Source of the DNA: Methylocystis rosea
GTDB lineage: Bacteria > Pseudomonadota > Alphaproteobacteria > Rhizobiales > Beijerinckiaceae
Assembly: GCF_003855495.1 (NCBI RefSeq)
Contig: NZ_CP034086.1
Location: 1,959,501 to 2,023,500, forward strand
Length of the DNA: 64,000 nt
Direction: 5' to 3'
Positions 5,810 to 11,157 of the stretch are shown piece after piece. The notes under the pieces are model-generated. The model was not told the origin of the DNA, ran no database searches, and saw only the letters and a list, made by a program, of their open reading frames with translations. Positions within the stretch are counted from its first letter, which is position 1; every line of letters starts with the position of its first letter. The position numbers and the translations under genes are program-made.

Positions 5810-6217
5810 CTACTCGCCCTGAGAAGGATGCGCACGCCGACCGCGCGCCGTCAGGCGCACGATTGAGCCGCCCGGACGCGGAAATACGAGCTGCAAACAA
5901 TCTCCCGGTCCGTTGGTGATTTCCCACGGATGGGTCAGAAAGGTGCTGATCGTTTTGCGCTCTCCAGGATTAAGACCGCCATAGCTCTTGTCGCCGCCAG
6001 AGAAGTCCTTCCAGTAAATGCCGCGATATTCGCCCGACTGATTGACGAAGGTGATCGTCGTCGCGACGTCGCTGTTTTGTGAACGCGCGCTCGGACAACC
6101 GGCGTGCGCCGAGGTTGCGGCTCCTAGGGAGGCAGCCGCAACAATCGCGACCCAGAGCCGCAACGATGACCGAGTTCGATTGTCTGTCACAGGGTTCCCC
6201 TTCACGATGCGTGCCAT
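5810..6217 (-). CDS. Small secreted protein with a VHL-beta-like domain
   Basis: A 135-residue protein with an N-terminal hydrophobic segment (about residues 20-39, ending SAHAG) that reads as a signal peptide or lipoprotein-like leader; Cys41 follows directly. Residues 51-111 resemble the von Hippel-Lindau beta domain: a TITFVNQSG strand, IYWKDFSG, the LNPGER turn and ISTFLTHPWEIT, in the same order as in VHL (FCN-S, W-F-G, L-PG, I-S--GH-W). Bacterial VHL-beta proteins exist in databases but have no general assigned role. The gene diverges from the Fae homologue with about 130 bp between them. Identification is by eye and needs a profile search. Confidence 0.6.
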   Translation of the reverse strand: MARIVKGNPVTDNRTRSSLRLWVAIVAAASLGAATSAHAGCPSARSQNSDVATTITFVNQSGEYRGIYWKDFSGGDKSYGGLNPGERKTISTFLTHPWEITNGPGDCLQLVFPRPGGSIVRLTARGRRAHPSQGE

Positions 6218-6349
6218 GTTGAGGGCGCGCGCCGCCTATAATGACGCGCGGCCGATGCGCCGGCAACGCCGCTCAGCCGGAGGATCGCCGGCTTCCATGT
6301 GACGGCGCGCGATGCTATCGAGCCCTCGATCAACGCAAGAGGAACGACG

Positions 6350-6892
6350 ATGACCGAGCATATCTGGCTGGCGACGGGCGAAGCGACGGTTCTGGCCGCG
6401 GACGGACAATACACTGACGCCATGCCGGAAGTGATGATCGGCAACGTCAAGGGTCCGGTCGGGCACGCCTTCGCCAGCATGGCCGGCCAAGTCGCCGGCC
6501 ATCCGCGCATGTTCGTCATCCGCGACCTCAACCAGCAGGTGCGGCCGTCGACCATGATGACCACGAAGATGACGGTCAAATCGGAAGATTACGTCGAGCT
6601 TCTCGGCGGAGTCGTGCAGGCGGCGACCGGCGACGCCATCGTCGACTGCATTGCCGAAGGGATTCTCCCCAAGGATCAGCTCAACGAGCTCTGCATGATC
6701 ATCATGGTCTGGCTCGATCCGCGTTGCGCGACGCATACGGAGCTCGACAAGAAAGATCTCTATCGCACCAATTACGAAGCGACGAAGCTCGCGATCTCTC
6801 GCGCCATGAAGGGCGAGCCGACGGCCGACGAACTCATCGCCAACCGCAAGAGCGTTCAGCACTACGCGCTTGAAGGCGTGTTCGAAGACTGA
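6350..6892 (+). CDS. Formaldehyde-activating enzyme (Fae) homologue lacking the catalytic histidine
   Basis: A 180-residue member of the Fae family. Fae condenses formaldehyde with tetrahydromethanopterin in methylotrophs. Evidence is the colinear match to Fae: TGEATV...DGQ, MIGNVKGP, a D--AEGI-P segment (CIAEGILPKDQ), and the strongly conserved YEATKLAISRAMKGEP followed by NRKS. The ATG at 6350 has an AGAGGA site just upstream; a GTG at 6299 is possible but less likely. At the position of the conserved N-terminal Fae histidine (the AHIDL motif) this protein has Met25, so normal Fae catalysis is doubtful. It is probably one of the divergent paralogues (Fae2/3-like) and could bind or sense a C1 adduct. 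Its 3' end overlaps the convergent bufC by 31 bp. Confidence 0.85.
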   Translation: MTEHIWLATGEATVLAADGQYTDAMPEVMIGNVKGPVGHAFASMAGQVAGHPRMFVIRDLNQQVRPSTMMTTKMTVKSEDYVELLGGVVQAATGDAIVDCIAEGILPKDQLNELCMIIMVWLDPRCATHTELDKKDLYRTNYEATKLAISRAMKGEPTADELIANRKSVQHYALEGVFED

Positions 6893-7701
6893 TCGTCCTC
6901 GCGGACGCGCACGCCGATAATCATGCCGTCCTCGAACCAGCTTGAGAGACATTGCGCCAGCCGCTCTGGCGCAATCTCGCCCGCCTGCTGAAAGGCGGTC
7001 ATCTGACAAATGTCGCCGAAGGCGTGGCCGGCGCGCGCTTCGGACAGCGCGACATATTCGTCGGGCTCGAGCTGGCGATAGGCGGATTCATGATCGACGC
7101 GCCATACGGCGGCATGTTCGATGTGTTCGCCCGGCGCGGGCTTATCGACGCTCGTTGGCGGTTCCTCGCTAATCGCCGCGCCATAGGCCTCGACCGTGCC
7201 GGCGGCGAGTTCGAGCAGCGTGAGGCTCGGGTCGAATTCGAAGGCGAGCCGCGCCCAATCGTCGGGCGCAAAGCCCGCCAGCGCCTGCACCGTCAACGGC
7301 GTTTCGTCAGTCGTGTCGAAGGCGTCGACCATGGCGCGCTCAAACAGCGCCATGGACGCCGCCGCAACATCGTCGCGCCAGTGCGCATTTTCGCGCATGA
7401 AGTCCGGCAGTCCGGTCGTAAACCAGCGCGCGTTCGGATCGCGCGACGGACGCTGGTCGATGTAGTCGTCGACCAGCGCGTCAAACGCCTCGTCTCCGAG
7501 AATCGCGCGCAGCCCCGGGTGATCCTGCGAAACAAAGTCCGCAAGCCGAATGCGGTAGCCCGTCTGATAGACGTCCAGCAGCGTCTCCGGCGCGGCGCCG
7601 CGCGGCGACGGCCGTAATTTTTTCAGGAGCGGCTTGTCCGCCTCTCCAGAGCCGGCCAGCACACGCTGCTGAAACAGAGACTGAAAGTCGGCGAGCTTCA
7701 T
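6862..7701 (-). CDS. bufC: DUF2063 (BufC/HvfC-type) partner of the MNIO enzyme
   Basis: A 279-residue protein with an N-terminal DUF2063 domain (about residues 1-100), seen in LADFQSLFQQRVL, then DVYQTGYRIRLADFV, PGLRAILGDEAFDALV and a YI--RPS motif, and a second alpha/beta half to residue 270. In bufferin and related RiPP systems this protein binds the MNIO enzyme and recognises the precursor leader. Its start overlaps the MNIO stop (ATGA), so the two are translationally coupled. The 3' end overlaps the convergent Fae homologue. The name follows the neighbourhood; direct function is inferred from family. Confidence 0.87.
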   Translation of the reverse strand: MKLADFQSLFQQRVLAGSGEADKPLLKKLRPSPRGAAPETLLDVYQTGYRIRLADFVSQDHPGLRAILGDEAFDALVDDYIDQRPSRDPNARWFTTGLPDFMRENAHWRDDVAAASMALFERAMVDAFDTTDETPLTVQALAGFAPDDWARLAFEFDPSLTLLELAAGTVEAYGAAISEEPPTSVDKPAPGEHIEHAAVWRVDHESAYRQLEPDEYVALSEARAGHAFGDICQMTAFQQAGEIAPERLAQCLSSWFEDGMIIGVRVREDDQSSNTPSSA

Positions 7702-8543
7702 GCCGCGCTGAGCGCTCGCTCTTTTGAGATGCGGGCGTCGATGTCGCGCATATTCTGGAGTTCGTCCAAAAGCTCCGCGAGCGGCGGATAATTGTCGTCG
7801 CGCTCAATCATGGCGGAGACGTCGCCACAGCGACGACGCGCGTGCTCGTAGAGCGCCCAGACCTCATCACAGACCGGCTGGTCGTGCGTGTCCACGCGAT
7901 GCGTCTCGTGATCGGTGTGACCCGCCATGTGAAATTGCACGACGCGATCGGCCGGAACGCCGTTGATGAAGGCGACCGGATCGAAGCCGTGGTTGAAGCT
8001 CGAAACGAAAACATTGTTGACGTCGAGCAGCAACAGGCAATCGGCGCGCTCGGCCATTTCGCGGACGAACTCGTGTTCGCTCATCTCCGAATCGACAAAC
8101 GACACGTAGGTTGAGGCGTTTTCAACGACTAGCCGGCGCTTGAGAAAATCCTGCACCCGCTGGATGCGCTCGACGATATGCGCAAGCGATTCGCGCGTGT
8201 AGGGAATGGGCAGCAGATCGTGGAGCGTCACGCCATGAACGCCTGTCCAGGCGACGTGATCTGAAACCCATGCCGGCTGGACGCGTTCGGCGAGCGCCTT
8301 CAACTGCCTTAAATAGTCGAAGTTGAGCGGGTCGGTTGACGCAAGCGACATCGAGACGCCATGCATGACGACGGGATAGTCGGCGCGTATGCGCTCCAAC
8401 ATCGCCAGAGGTCGGCCGCCCGCGAGCATGTAGTTTTCAGAAATGATTTCGAACCAGTCGATCGGCGGGCGGGACGAGAGGATCTCTTCATAATAGATCG
8501 GCCGCAGACCCAAGCCGTAGCCAAGCGGCGCGGGTTTTTCCAT
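7698..8543 (-). CDS. bufB: MNIO (DUF692) multinuclear iron oxidase, BufB-type
   Basis: A 281-residue TIM-barrel enzyme of the DUF692 family, which uses an iron cluster to oxidise cysteines of ribosomal peptides, for example to thiooxazole or oxazolone. Signature residues are present in order: GLRP, FEIISENYM, VMHGVSMSLAS, SDHVAWTG, HDLLPIPYT, VVENASTYV, LLLDVNNVFVSS, QFHMAGH and DTHDQPV, which include the His, Asp, Glu and Asn metal ligands. I choose the ATG at 8543 because a GAGGGA site lies seven bases upstream; the open frame extends to 8564. It sits between the candidate precursor and BufC, in bufferin order. Confidence 0.92.
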   Translation of the reverse strand: MEKPAPLGYGLGLRPIYYEEILSSRPPIDWFEIISENYMLAGGRPLAMLERIRADYPVVMHGVSMSLASTDPLNFDYLRQLKALAERVQPAWVSDHVAWTGVHGVTLHDLLPIPYTRESLAHIVERIQRVQDFLKRRLVVENASTYVSFVDSEMSEHEFVREMAERADCLLLLDVNNVFVSSFNHGFDPVAFINGVPADRVVQFHMAGHTDHETHRVDTHDQPVCDEVWALYEHARRRCGDVSAMIERDDNYPPLAELLDELQNMRDIDARISKERALSAA

Positions 8544-8596
8544 GACGTGTTCCCTCTCAGGCATCGCCGCTCATGCCGGAGCCGCATCAGCGTGGC

Positions 8597-8621
8597 GGGG
8601 ACGGCCGTAGGAGCCGGCCCC
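8597..8621 (-). promoter_or_regulatory. Hairpin between RiPP precursor and MNIO gene
   Basis: A 9-bp stem with one mismatch (8597-8605 pairing 8613-8621, loop of 7) sits 11 nt after the precursor stop codon. There is no T-run in the direction of transcription, so it is more likely a partial attenuator or mRNA-stabilising hairpin that raises precursor output over the enzymes. Seen directly; role inferred. Confidence 0.45.
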
Positions 8622-8632
8622 GCGCAAGGCGA

Positions 8633-8863
8633 TTACTTGCTGTGGCAGCGGCTCTTCATGTTGCAGCGGCCCTTGTGGTGGTGACACTGCGCCTTGTGGT
8701 GGCACTTGGCCATGCCGCGGCATGTTCCCTTGGCGCCGCAATGTGTCTTCGCGTGGGTCGACTTCGCGGAATGCGCGTGGGCGGGCGCAACCGACGCGCC
8801 GCTCAGAGCAAGGGCGACGGCGGCGGCGGCGAGAGCCGAACCTGAAATAATATTCGTCTTCAT
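8633..8863 (-). CDS. bufA: Candidate bufferin-like RiPP precursor, Cys/His-rich exported peptide
   Basis: A 76-residue peptide. Residues 1-30 form a Sec signal peptide (hydrophobic LAAAAVALALSGASV, cleavage likely after PAHA). The remaining 46 residues hold six cysteines at 42, 48, 54, 60, 67 and 73, with spacings X5, X5, X5, X6, X5, plus many His and Lys, including CHHKAQCHHHK. It has an AGAGGAG ribosome site just upstream and is first in an operon with an MNIO enzyme and a DUF2063 protein, the gene order of copper-binding bufferins. It lacks the EGKCG motif common in other HvfA/BufA1-type precursors, so it would be a variant class. Role as the modified substrate and in metal (copper) binding is inferred; it could also be an unmodified metal-binding peptide. 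Confidence 0.75.
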   Translation of the reverse strand: MKTNIISGSALAAAAVALALSGASVAPAHAHSAKSTHAKTHCGAKGTCRGMAKCHHKAQCHHHKGRCNMKSRCHSK

Positions 8864-8930: not shown

Positions 8931-9227
8931 AGGCGAAGTTCACTGGACTTCGGCCAAGTGGCCGGGCGCCCATGTTGCGACCAGCGGCGTCGCCGCCGCT
9001 GACGTCTGCGGCGCGCCGAAGCCTGGCAGTCGACGCAGACTATGCGTGCGGCTGCGATTCCGCTAGCGAGAAATTCGCCAATAAATGAGCCTTTTTGAGT
9101 TATGATTATTATATTAAATCAGTATATTGTTAACTTATTGCAGTGCAATATCATGACTTTGGTAAGGCTGAGCCGACTGTTTTCTTTTTGGCGCGCTTGC
9201 GACGGCGGCGCGACGCTGGTAGATAGG

Positions 9228-9411: not shown

Positions 9412-11157
9412 ATGTCCGCCACGACCGATCGCGCGCCTACGCGCGAAGATTTCGCCGCTCTGCTTGATGAGAGCTATGGCCAGAACGAGGCCTTCGAAGG
9501 TTCCGTCATCAAGGGCCGCGTCGTCGCCATCGAAAAGGATGTCGCCGTCATCGACATCGGCCTCAAGACCGAGGGCCGCGTCGCCATCAAGGAATTCACC
9601 GGCTATGGCCGGGACCCCGCCCCCCAAGTGGGCGAAGAAGTCGAAGTCTACCTGGAGCGCGTCGAGAACGCGCTCGGCGAAGCTGTCATTTCGCGCGACA
9701 AGGCGCGCCGCGAAGAGAGCTGGGTCAAGCTCGAAAAGGCCTTCGAGACCAATGAAAAGGTCGAGGGCGTCATCTTCAATCAGGTCAAGGGCGGCTTCAC
9801 CGTCGACCTCGACGGCGCCGTGGCCTTTCTGCCGCGCAGCCAGGTCGACATTCGTCCGATCCGCGACGTCGGCCCGCTGATGAACGTGCCGCAGCCGTTC
9901 CACATCCTGAAGATGGACCGCCGACGCGGCAATATCGTCGTCTCGCGCCGCACCGTGCTCGAAGAGAGCCGCGCCGAGCAGCGCCACGAGATCGTCGCCA
10001 ACCTCGAAGAGGGACAGGTGATCGACGGCGTCGTGAAGAACATCACCGACTACGGCGCCTTCGTCGATCTCGGCGGCATCGACGGCCTGCTGCATGTCAC
10101 CGACATCGCCTGGCGGCGCGTCAATCATCCGTCCGAGGTGCTGACCATCGGTCAGACCGTCAAGGTGAAGATCATCAAGATCAATCACGAGACGCACCGC
10201 ATCTCGCTCGGCATGAAGCAGCTCCTCGAGGATCCCTGGCAGGGCATCGAGGCGAAATATCCGATCAGCGCCAGGTTCCACGGCCGCGTGACCAACATCA
10301 CCGACTACGGCGCTTTCGTCGAACTGGAGCCTGGCATCGAAGGCCTCGTCCACGTCTCGGAAATGAGCTGGACGAAAAAGAACGTCCATCCCGGCAAGAT
10401 CGTCTCGACGAGCCAGGAAGTCGACGTTCAGGTGCTCGAGGTCGATCCGGTCAAACGTCGAATTTCGCTGGGCCTCAAGCAGTGCCTGCAGAATCCTTGG
10501 GAGGCCTTCGCCGAGAAGCATCCGGTCGGCTCGACCGTCTCGGGCGAAGTGAAGAACAAGACCGAGTTCGGGCTCTTCATCGGGCTCGACGGCGACGTGG
10601 ACGGCATGGTCCATCTGTCGGACCTCGACTGGAACCGTCCCGGCGAGCAGGTCATCGAGGAGTATAAGAAGGGCGACATGATCAACGCCCAGGTCCTCGA
10701 TGTCGACGTGGAGAAGGAGCGCATTTCGCTTGGCGTCAAGCAGCTCGCAGGCGATCCGTTCGCTTCCGTCAGCGCCGAAGAAGGCGGCGAGCTCAGAAAG
10801 GGCCTTGTCATCACCTGCGAGGTGATCGAGGTGAAGGATTCCGGCATCGACGTAAAGATCGCCGGCACCGATCTCTCCACCTTCATCAAGCGCAGCGAAC
10901 TCGCTCGCGACCGCGCCGACCAGCGTCCTGAACGGTTCGCCGTCGGCGAGAAAGTCGACGCCCGCGTGACGCTGTTCGACCGCAAGGCCCGCAAGGTCTC
11001 CGTCTCGATCAAGGCGCTCGAAGTCGCTGAAGAGAAGGAGGCCATCGCGCAATATGGCTCGGCCGACTCCGGCGCTTCGCTGGGCGACATCCTTGGCGCG
11101 GCGCTCAAAGCCCGCGAAGAGACGCCCAAGAAAGCCAAGAAGGACGAGGAAGAGTAA
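9412..11157 (+). CDS. rpsA: 30S ribosomal protein S1
   Basis: A 581-residue protein with six S1 RNA-binding repeats. The first repeats include [21 protein letters not shown], and later ones show the [22 protein letters not shown] signature at about residues 205-230 and again near 295. S1 helps mRNAs bind the 30S subunit. Start ATG 9412 has a CAGGAGA site. The C-terminus ends in a Lys/Glu-rich tail (KKAKKDEEE). In many relatives cmk precedes rpsA; here the upstream neighbour is the RiPP operon on the other strand, so rpsA is transcribed alone and ends in a strong terminator. Confidence 0.98.
   Translation: [581 protein letters not shown]

Follow-up and report, generated by a model that had tools for sequence, protein, structure and literature searches.

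The 64,000-nucleotide stretch of Methylocystis rosea DNA analysed here (NZ_CP034086.1, positions 1,959,501 to 2,023,500; hereafter the window) carries, between positions 6862 and 8863 of the minus strand, a compact three-gene operon in the order precursor, MNIO, DUF2063. On sequence grounds it is an operon of the Buf2 bufferin (captophorin) type, whose precursor has a core different from that of the canonical Buf2 peptide, BufA2. We consider, with a probability of roughly 0.7, that this is a Buf2-lineage operon for a ribosomally synthesized and post-translationally modified peptide (RiPP), that its exported precursor would be modified on cysteines and bind copper, and that the core would have been replaced in Methylocystis and Methylosinus. 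A first-pass annotation of this DNA had read the gene order and coordinates correctly, as the open reading frames (ORFs) and the matches to MbnB_TglH_ChrH and DUF2063 confirm, and its call of a bufferin-type operon agrees with an MNIO score above the MNIO_BufB cut-off. It did not name the closest known precursor, which is BufA2.

Enzyme, leader and locus

We assign the operon to Buf2 because the signal peptide, the enzyme tree and the synteny all point there. The MNIO scores 376 bits on the NCBIfam MNIO_BufB model (cut-off 310) and falls below the cut-offs of the HvfB (275.1 vs 360 bits) and MbnB (79.9 vs 325 bits) models, with 368.4 bits on Pfam MbnB_TglH_ChrH; the fitting ATG of its gene lies at 8543-8541. 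The ATG of the DUF2063 gene overlaps the MNIO stop, and the domain that marks BufC, or PME type 1, scores well above its gathering threshold of 27.2 bits. No sequence in the PDB matched this partner protein up to an E-value of 1. The quick-search tree, built without bootstrap, comprised 74 rows, 41 of them beside canonical BufA2, 3 from Buf1 and 30 labelled as new-core, 29 of which bear a new-core precursor (L038, from genome G105, has no precursor there). In this tree the new-core MNIOs nest among those of canonical BufA2 loci and group with the canonical-type MNIO of the Methylocystis relative G089 (SH-aLRT 87). G089 furthermore encodes a canonical BufA2 in the rpsA-precursor-MNIO-BufC-fae synteny that it has in common with the window.

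Across the 74 aligned MNIOs, Buf2 and Buf1 included, 17 His, Asp, Glu or Asn columns are invariant. The catalytic-type Asp is followed by a second Asp in 29/29 new-core and 40/41 canonical enzymes; the three Buf1 MNIOs aligned have Asn, and alignment with PDB 3BWW places Phe at this site. According to PMC13097082, the residue is Asp in Cys-Lys enzymes and Phe in EGKCG enzymes.

Identity of the window signal peptide to those of five canonical BufA2s ranges from 47 to 77%, vs 33% to that of the BufA1 of the same genome. Its core reaches 22-26% identity to the same five BufA2s, approximately a level that unrelated sequences can reach, and hhalign joins the new-type profile to BufA2 with a probability of 98.4% over columns 1-49 only; the case for homology thus stops short of the rest of the core, and the new core at this locus could be either a remodelled BufA2 core or the core of a paralogue that took its place. 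On the NCBI BufA2 model (NF050166) the window precursor scores 18.3 bits against a cut-off of 60, and the model matches 11 of 17 new-type members at E ≤ 0.1 (best 1.2e-5). The idea of a new precursor class, raised in the first-pass annotation, thus stands as far as the distance from the BufA2 cut-off goes, and fails if an unrelated class was meant, since signal peptide, enzyme tree and synteny place the peptide in Buf2.

Precursor peptide and its core

Behind a signal-peptide-like start, which was read from the sequence and is conserved among relatives, the precursor has a core of 46 residues. Its cysteines stand at positions 42, 48, 54, 60, 67 and 73, exactly as first described, in steps of 6, 6, 6, 7 and 6, and the peptide contains ten histidines in total. 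A six-frame search of the window finds this pattern once; none of 60 triplet-shuffled windows contains it, and 200,000 shuffles of the core residues reproduced it a single time, which puts the spacing beyond chance. The precursor gene is under purifying selection: the window sequence and those of 13 near loci, compared in 91 pairs, give pN/pS values of 0.09 (signal peptide) and 0.20 (core), with all six cysteines identical in 14/14. Shuffle controls and pN/pS together rule out a chance pattern or a pseudogene. The AlphaFold model of the precursor is uninformative (pLDDT 49.2, pTM 0.15); that of canonical BufA2 is also weak (56.7, 0.37) and has a C-terminal strand-helix-strand part without counterpart in the new core.

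For comparison, the canonical set comprised 61 loci (L080-L140), of which 60 were readable after L098, with a masked stretch at the precursor, was left out. Canonical cysteine steps are 6, 6, 7, 6, 13/14 in 58/60 of them, over many genera, a spacing from which the window precursor departs. Cys-Lys accounts for 237 of 357 cysteines in the 60 canonical precursors, hence about two in three, vs 9 of 68 in ten new-type precursors and 0 of 6 in the window (all neighbour counts cover cysteines past residue 30). Conversely, Lys stands three residues before the cysteine in 59/68 new-type vs 69/357 canonical cases, and the cores differ in His (19.0% vs 1.2%) and in Asp plus Glu (0.4% vs 5.7%). Buf2/BufA2 bufferins (BUF_6/12Cys; NF050166; 'Cys-Lys' captophorins) thus resemble the window system in A-B-C order, signal peptide, DUF2063 partner, MNIO subtype including the Asp-Asp motif, number of six cysteines and the presence of a relative's BufA2 at the same locus, whereas the window core lacks Cys-Lys, a C-terminal cysteine and the GG end. 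In Buf1, the first and last cysteines are reported to form a disulphide (PMC12452194); by analogy, the outer two cysteines of canonical BufA2 may be such a pair, and the new core has no such last cysteine.

Some peptides depart from both patterns. In two Bradyrhizobium metagenome-assembled genomes (MAGs; L099 and L112), the precursor upstream of the MNIO is a BufA2 without the fourth cysteine (steps 6, 6, 13, 13). Five short peptides with similar signal peptides (L180 2096-2482, from G215; P0056, P0079, P0083 and P0097) have hexad cores rich in Cys-Lys or Cys-Arg and no C-terminal cysteine, and look intermediate between canonical and new.

Distribution and linkage to MNIO genes

The family search covered 397 genomes (E ≤ 0.001), with up to 13 candidates per genome scored (all in Methylosinus), so that weak orphans could escape it. 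Its result is bimodal, with 39 matches at 100-131 bits and the remainder at or below 52.2 bits. Each of the 39 new-type precursors is followed on the same strand, at a distance of 63-373 nt, by an MNIO with at least 74% identity to that of the window. Homologues mostly without MNIO genes would have spoken against the first-pass annotation; the close homologues are, without exception, MNIO-linked, which is in its favour. The 39 genes belong to 37 genomes, 28 in a genus group read as Methylocystis and 9 in one read as Methylosinus. A search of 397 genomes sampled from the order gave, beyond the family, no match above 35.6 bits. Among the genomes searched, the new-type precursor is restricted to these two genera. 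Five genomes carry an MNIO at least 73% identical without a new-type precursor: G089, G215, G261 and G332 have canonical BufA2 there, and G105 has none.

Public records give the same picture. Among named loci, those of Methylocystis rosea SV97 and a Methylocystis MAG come nearest (MNIO 99% identical), which, together with two PmoB genes in the window genome, bears out the methanotroph host supposed in the first-pass annotation. All 19 named-record loci (L061-L079; MNIO 73-99% identical) have the new-type precursor, and their titles read Methylocystis, Methylosinus, Methylocystaceae or unclassified MAGs; no DoxX match was found within the stretches examined. The operon is thus a real, conserved and lineage-restricted Buf2 variant.

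A protein search with a 17-member alignment addressed 5.8 billion proteins, of which the best 7992 candidates were scored, without genomic context. It returned at least 97 matches, including 21 canonical ones; among the other 76, 74 have 2-9 core cysteines, often in C-x-x-K-x-x steps, and P0088 and P0091, among the matches listed, have no core cysteine. Non-canonical matches with a printed taxon are, among those listed, Methylocystis or Methylocystaceae (P0005, P0009, P0023). NCBI names P0005 'hypothetical protein' and canonical relatives such as P0085 BufA2. In the titles and abstract openings of the top-ranked open-access matches, no bufferin-type precursor with C-x-x-K-x-x or CHHK motifs and no such methanotroph operon is described; Table S2 of PMC12452194, which lists unclassified precursors with 1-18 cysteines, might already include some of these ORFs.

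Tandem precursors

Several Methylocystis genomes encode two precursors in tandem (e.g. G151, G177, G247, G017, G277, G114, G322 and G312), and G282, G302 and L077 encode three, with 2, 9 and 6 cysteines; the 2-Cys peptide has a charged tail, and the 6-Cys peptide is like that of the window. At its end the 9-Cys peptide resembles the window core and at its start the Methylosinus peptide, as if it were the product of module recombination. In G089, G261 and G332, the MNIO is 75-80% identical to that of the window and is preceded by canonical BufA2 together with another small peptide that has two core cysteines; extra precursors thus also occur without the new core. In L150 (1167-2072), L151 (1137-2074), L077 (3016-3921) and L148 (1190-1782), two or three tandem genes stand before one MNIO and encode similar signal peptides and different cores, and the first tandem precursor has 2-3 core cysteines and a long tail rich in Ala, Pro, Lys and Glu.

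A possible single maturase for two kinds of substrate

Another Buf2-type MNIO, at 64-71% identity (in G302 matched only in part), occurs in 8 of the 28 Methylocystis genomes that carry the new core and is missing from the other 20. Canonical BufA2 is kept in 20/20 of the latter, with 1-3 genes at or above the model cut-off, one counted copy (G234 C51) having an in-frame stop. The Methylosinus genomes G174 and G146 likewise keep three and two copies, and in Methylosinus G212 (86% complete) no canonical BufA2 scored above the model cut-off. The persistence of canonical BufA2 without another Buf2-type MNIO therefore suggests one maturase for both precursor kinds, and the simplest reading of these gene inventories is that the window-type BufB and BufC mature new-core and canonical BufA2 peptides alike. 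The MNIO of the Buf1 operon could mature BufA2 instead, because some 1.5 kb separate one of the two BufA2 genes of the window genome from the gene for the Buf1 precursor.

These two canonical genes (L141 5679-5951 and L142 4381-4683, genome G000) stand at C1:1169190 and C1:2334446 of the genome and have no MNIO of their own; L141 is the one near the Buf1 operon, at a place where G114, G151 and G177 have a complete BufA2-B2-C2 set. In G105 (L185 1182-3007), the MNIO and BufC reading frames are open and no precursor of either type was found adjoining them or by profile search of the genome, an apparent maturase without substrate.

Proposed mechanism and competing explanations

In the process that we envisage, the DUF2063 partner would hold the precursor by its signal peptide or leader, and the MNIO would oxidise core cysteines, most likely to 5-thiooxazoles (-4 Da each). 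The product would leave by Sec to the periplasm and bind copper there, with the histidines beside many of the cysteines as added ligands. Characterised pairs of MNIO and PME1 are reported to form 5-thiooxazoles with loss of 4 H per cysteine and absorbance at about 305 nm, and their products generally bind copper (PMC13097082). Preliminary results in PMC12452194 give the same mass loss per cysteine for the Buf2 system of Caulobacter vibrioides, which acts like Buf1, and suggest for Buf1 that its signal peptide contributes to the recognition sequence. The core at this locus would have been replaced by C-x-x-K-x-x repeats in the ancestor of Methylocystis and Methylosinus or early within them, perhaps in a single event; repeat number would change easily, with leader, maturase and position retained. 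The EGKCG peptides of Microbulbifer are likewise described as combining a conserved leader with a repeat core that varies (PMC12538549). Canonical BufA2 encoded elsewhere would probably still be matured by the same maturase in trans. A bolder version, which we put forward tentatively and regard as rather doubtful, makes of the Methylocystaceae bufferin a system with fixed leader and variable core: one MNIO/DUF2063 pair would read the signal peptide and mature canonical Cys-Lys BufA2 peptides in trans and up to three tandem peptides in cis, whose C-x-x-K-x-x cores have 2-9 cysteines, and modified cysteines next to histidines would yield a mixed thiooxazole/His copper site tuned to methanotrophy.

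Several observations weigh against a modified, copper-binding product of a Buf2-derived operon. No copper regulator, DoxX or sigma factor is encoded within the three-gene operon, and the Microbulbifer mmr genes (bulbicupramide) are reported not to be copper-responsive (PMC12538549). The enzyme keeps the Asp linked to Cys-Lys (29/29) though the window core has no Cys-Lys, and a maturase maintained for canonical BufA2 would explain this retention equally well; in the new core, His or Arg after the cysteine might meet the same Asp. FonBC, an EGKCG-type enzyme, is reported not to have processed peptides with a charged residue after the cysteine (PMC13097082), and C-H or C-R sites could for this reason be poor substrates. 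The quick tree does not resolve the new-core MNIOs as one clade and is compatible with one origin of the new core or with several. Finally, the BufA2-model score carries no weight for Buf2 over Buf1, because the DUF2282 precursor of the same genome scores 20.0 bits, above the 18.3 of the window precursor.

The retained Asp would also suit a precursor that is an unmodified, metallothionein-like metal sponge of the periplasm, rich in Cys and His and equipped with a borrowed bufferin signal peptide, with BufB and BufC kept only for canonical BufA2 in trans. The loss of Cys-Lys (0/6; 9/68 vs 237/357) despite the conserved Asp, the canonical BufA2 in all 20 new-core Methylocystis genomes without another Buf2-type MNIO, and bufferin precursors that are reported to occur without MNIO genes (PMC12452194) would all be in keeping with this. 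This is the main doubt about the proposed mechanism, though we judge it unlikely: all 39 new-type precursors, tandem ones likewise, lie upstream of an MNIO, with no further match above 52.2 bits in the 397 family genomes, and the leader is closer to BufA2 leaders (47-77%) than to the BufA1 leader (33%). To an ordinary Buf2 bufferin that has merely diverged, with altered spacing of no functional meaning, we give very little credence. The operon, the similar signal peptide, the locus and cysteine steps of about six in both types are what such divergence would leave, but canonical spacing is constant in 58/60 loci, and the new type has lost the last cysteine and Cys-Lys and varies from 4 to 9 cysteines among close relatives; moreover, the BufA2 model matches no more than 11/17 members at E ≤ 0.1, and the window member reaches 18.3 bits vs 60.

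A modified bufferin could, furthermore, have a role other than protection from excess copper: it might supply copper, by storing it or handing it on to particulate methane monooxygenase, or serve another metal. Its occurrence in two methanotroph genera only, among the genomes searched, the two PmoB genes and the methanobactin locus of the genome, and the His-rich core would fit such a role. It seems quite improbable to us, however, as the system appears dispensable: the near-complete genomes G057 and G164 of the same genus group have no match to the window MNIO at E ≤ 1e-40 (pmo content not compared). In addition, C. vibrioides bufferins are reported to protect from copper excess (PMC12452194).

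If a modified Buf2-derived precursor is indeed what this operon encodes, it would offer a natural experiment on the tolerance of RiPP enzymes, in which leader, enzyme and locus stay nearly constant and the core varies in motif, cysteine number and metal ligands. Two questions would become testable: what determines which cysteines a 5-thiooxazole MNIO selects (the Asp/Phe site), and whether the signal peptide acts as the leader by which substrates are recognised. The operon would be of value as a clean natural test of metal-site design and of leader vs core specificity. This lineage would then fall outside the three captophorin precursor groups published so far (DUF2282, Lys-Cys, Cys-Lys), and methanotrophs would gain a possible further periplasmic metal peptide. 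Among such peptides, methanotrophs are best known for methanobactin.

Other MNIO systems and known relatives

The window genome has four MNIO loci, of which this operon is one. L002 is a Buf1 operon with a DUF2282 precursor (86.8 bits), DoxX (50.4 bits) and a sigma-70 family factor; L003 is a TIGR04222 locus (78 bits against a cut-off of 43); and L004, the methanobactin locus, encodes the methanobactin peptide with MbnB (453 bits) and MbnC (286 bits). Buf1 (DUF2282) bufferins share the operon type and have a copy in the same genome; unlike the window system, they have another cysteine arrangement, and the genome's Buf1 MNIO is 40% identical to that of the window. Membership in Buf1 was rejected, as the precursor gave no DUF2282 match up to an E-value of 1 and the same-genome positive control scored 86.8 bits. 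The methanobactin system MbnA/B/C is likewise an MNIO-made copper RiPP of this genome, but MbnA has no signal peptide and the partner is MbnC where the window has DUF2063; it was rejected on the MbnB-model score below cut-off and the DUF2063 partner, with L004 as positive control (453 bits).

The HvfA/oxazolin group with fontiphorin and bulbicupramide (EGKCG, 'Lys-Cys' captophorins) resembles the new type in its conserved leader, its repeat core of variable copy number and its MNIO and DUF2063 proteins. The new type differs from it by six-residue C-x-x-K-x-x units without EGKCG and by Asp instead of Phe after the catalytic Asp. Membership was rejected, with no EGKCG in the 76 residues and an MNIO under the HvfB cut-off. 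The first-pass annotation had rightly noted the missing EGKCG; its label of EGKCG as an 'HvfA/BufA1-like' trait needs correction, since the motif marks the HvfA/oxazolin group and Buf1 is the DUF2282 family (PMC12452194).

Two features of these loci are noted in passing. Beside the third MNIO of the genome, L003 (2297-3220) encodes a TIGR04222 membrane protein with a tail rich in Gly, Ser and Cys. At L004 516-1373, a longer, sigma-factor-like ORF can be drawn that has the methanobactin peptide as its end; the NCBIfam 'exception' model for this methanobactin/sigma-factor fusion matched only over the last 30 residues.

Flanks and intergenic region

The operon lies between rpsA and fae (Table 1). 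Both flank it in 14/14 loci L061-L074, rpsA also flanks L177, rpsA without fae was seen in L075-L078, and neither flank was seen in L079.

Table 1. Features of the operon and its flanks, in window coordinates
Feature	Position	Strand	Evidence
Precursor, 76 aa: putative signal peptide ~1-30, then core of C-x-x-K-x-x-like units	8633..8863	-	ORF; Cys/His positions; profile relatives
MNIO maturase (BufB, Buf2 type), 281 aa	7698..8543	-	NCBIfam MNIO_BufB
DUF2063 partner (BufC / PME type 1), 279 aa	6862..7701	-	PF09836, 63.1 bits
fae-family gene (formaldehyde-activating enzyme), convergent flank, synteny marker	6302..6892	+	PF08714, 185.5 bits
rpsA (30S ribosomal protein S1), divergent flank, synteny marker	9412..11157	+	NCBIfam, 1075 bits (cut-off 878)
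Inverted repeat ATATTGC-N3-GCAATA, divergent rpsA/precursor intergenic region	9136..9151	-	alignment of 10 upstream regions

The exact palindrome ATTGC-N3-GCAAT is present in the upstream regions of 10/14 loci L061-L074 and is absent from the other buf loci of this genome among the loci examined. It is a possible regulator site, whose owner could be rpsA or the precursor gene. A genome scan that allowed one mismatch gave 3 forward and 3 reverse hits vs 0 and 1 for the reversed control, and we therefore claim no regulon. An Rfam scan of the window at the gathering threshold returned the signal recognition particle RNA alone. Beside fae, on the minus strand (5810-6217), the window encodes a small secreted-looking protein with a VHL beta domain (37.4 bits, cut-off 21).

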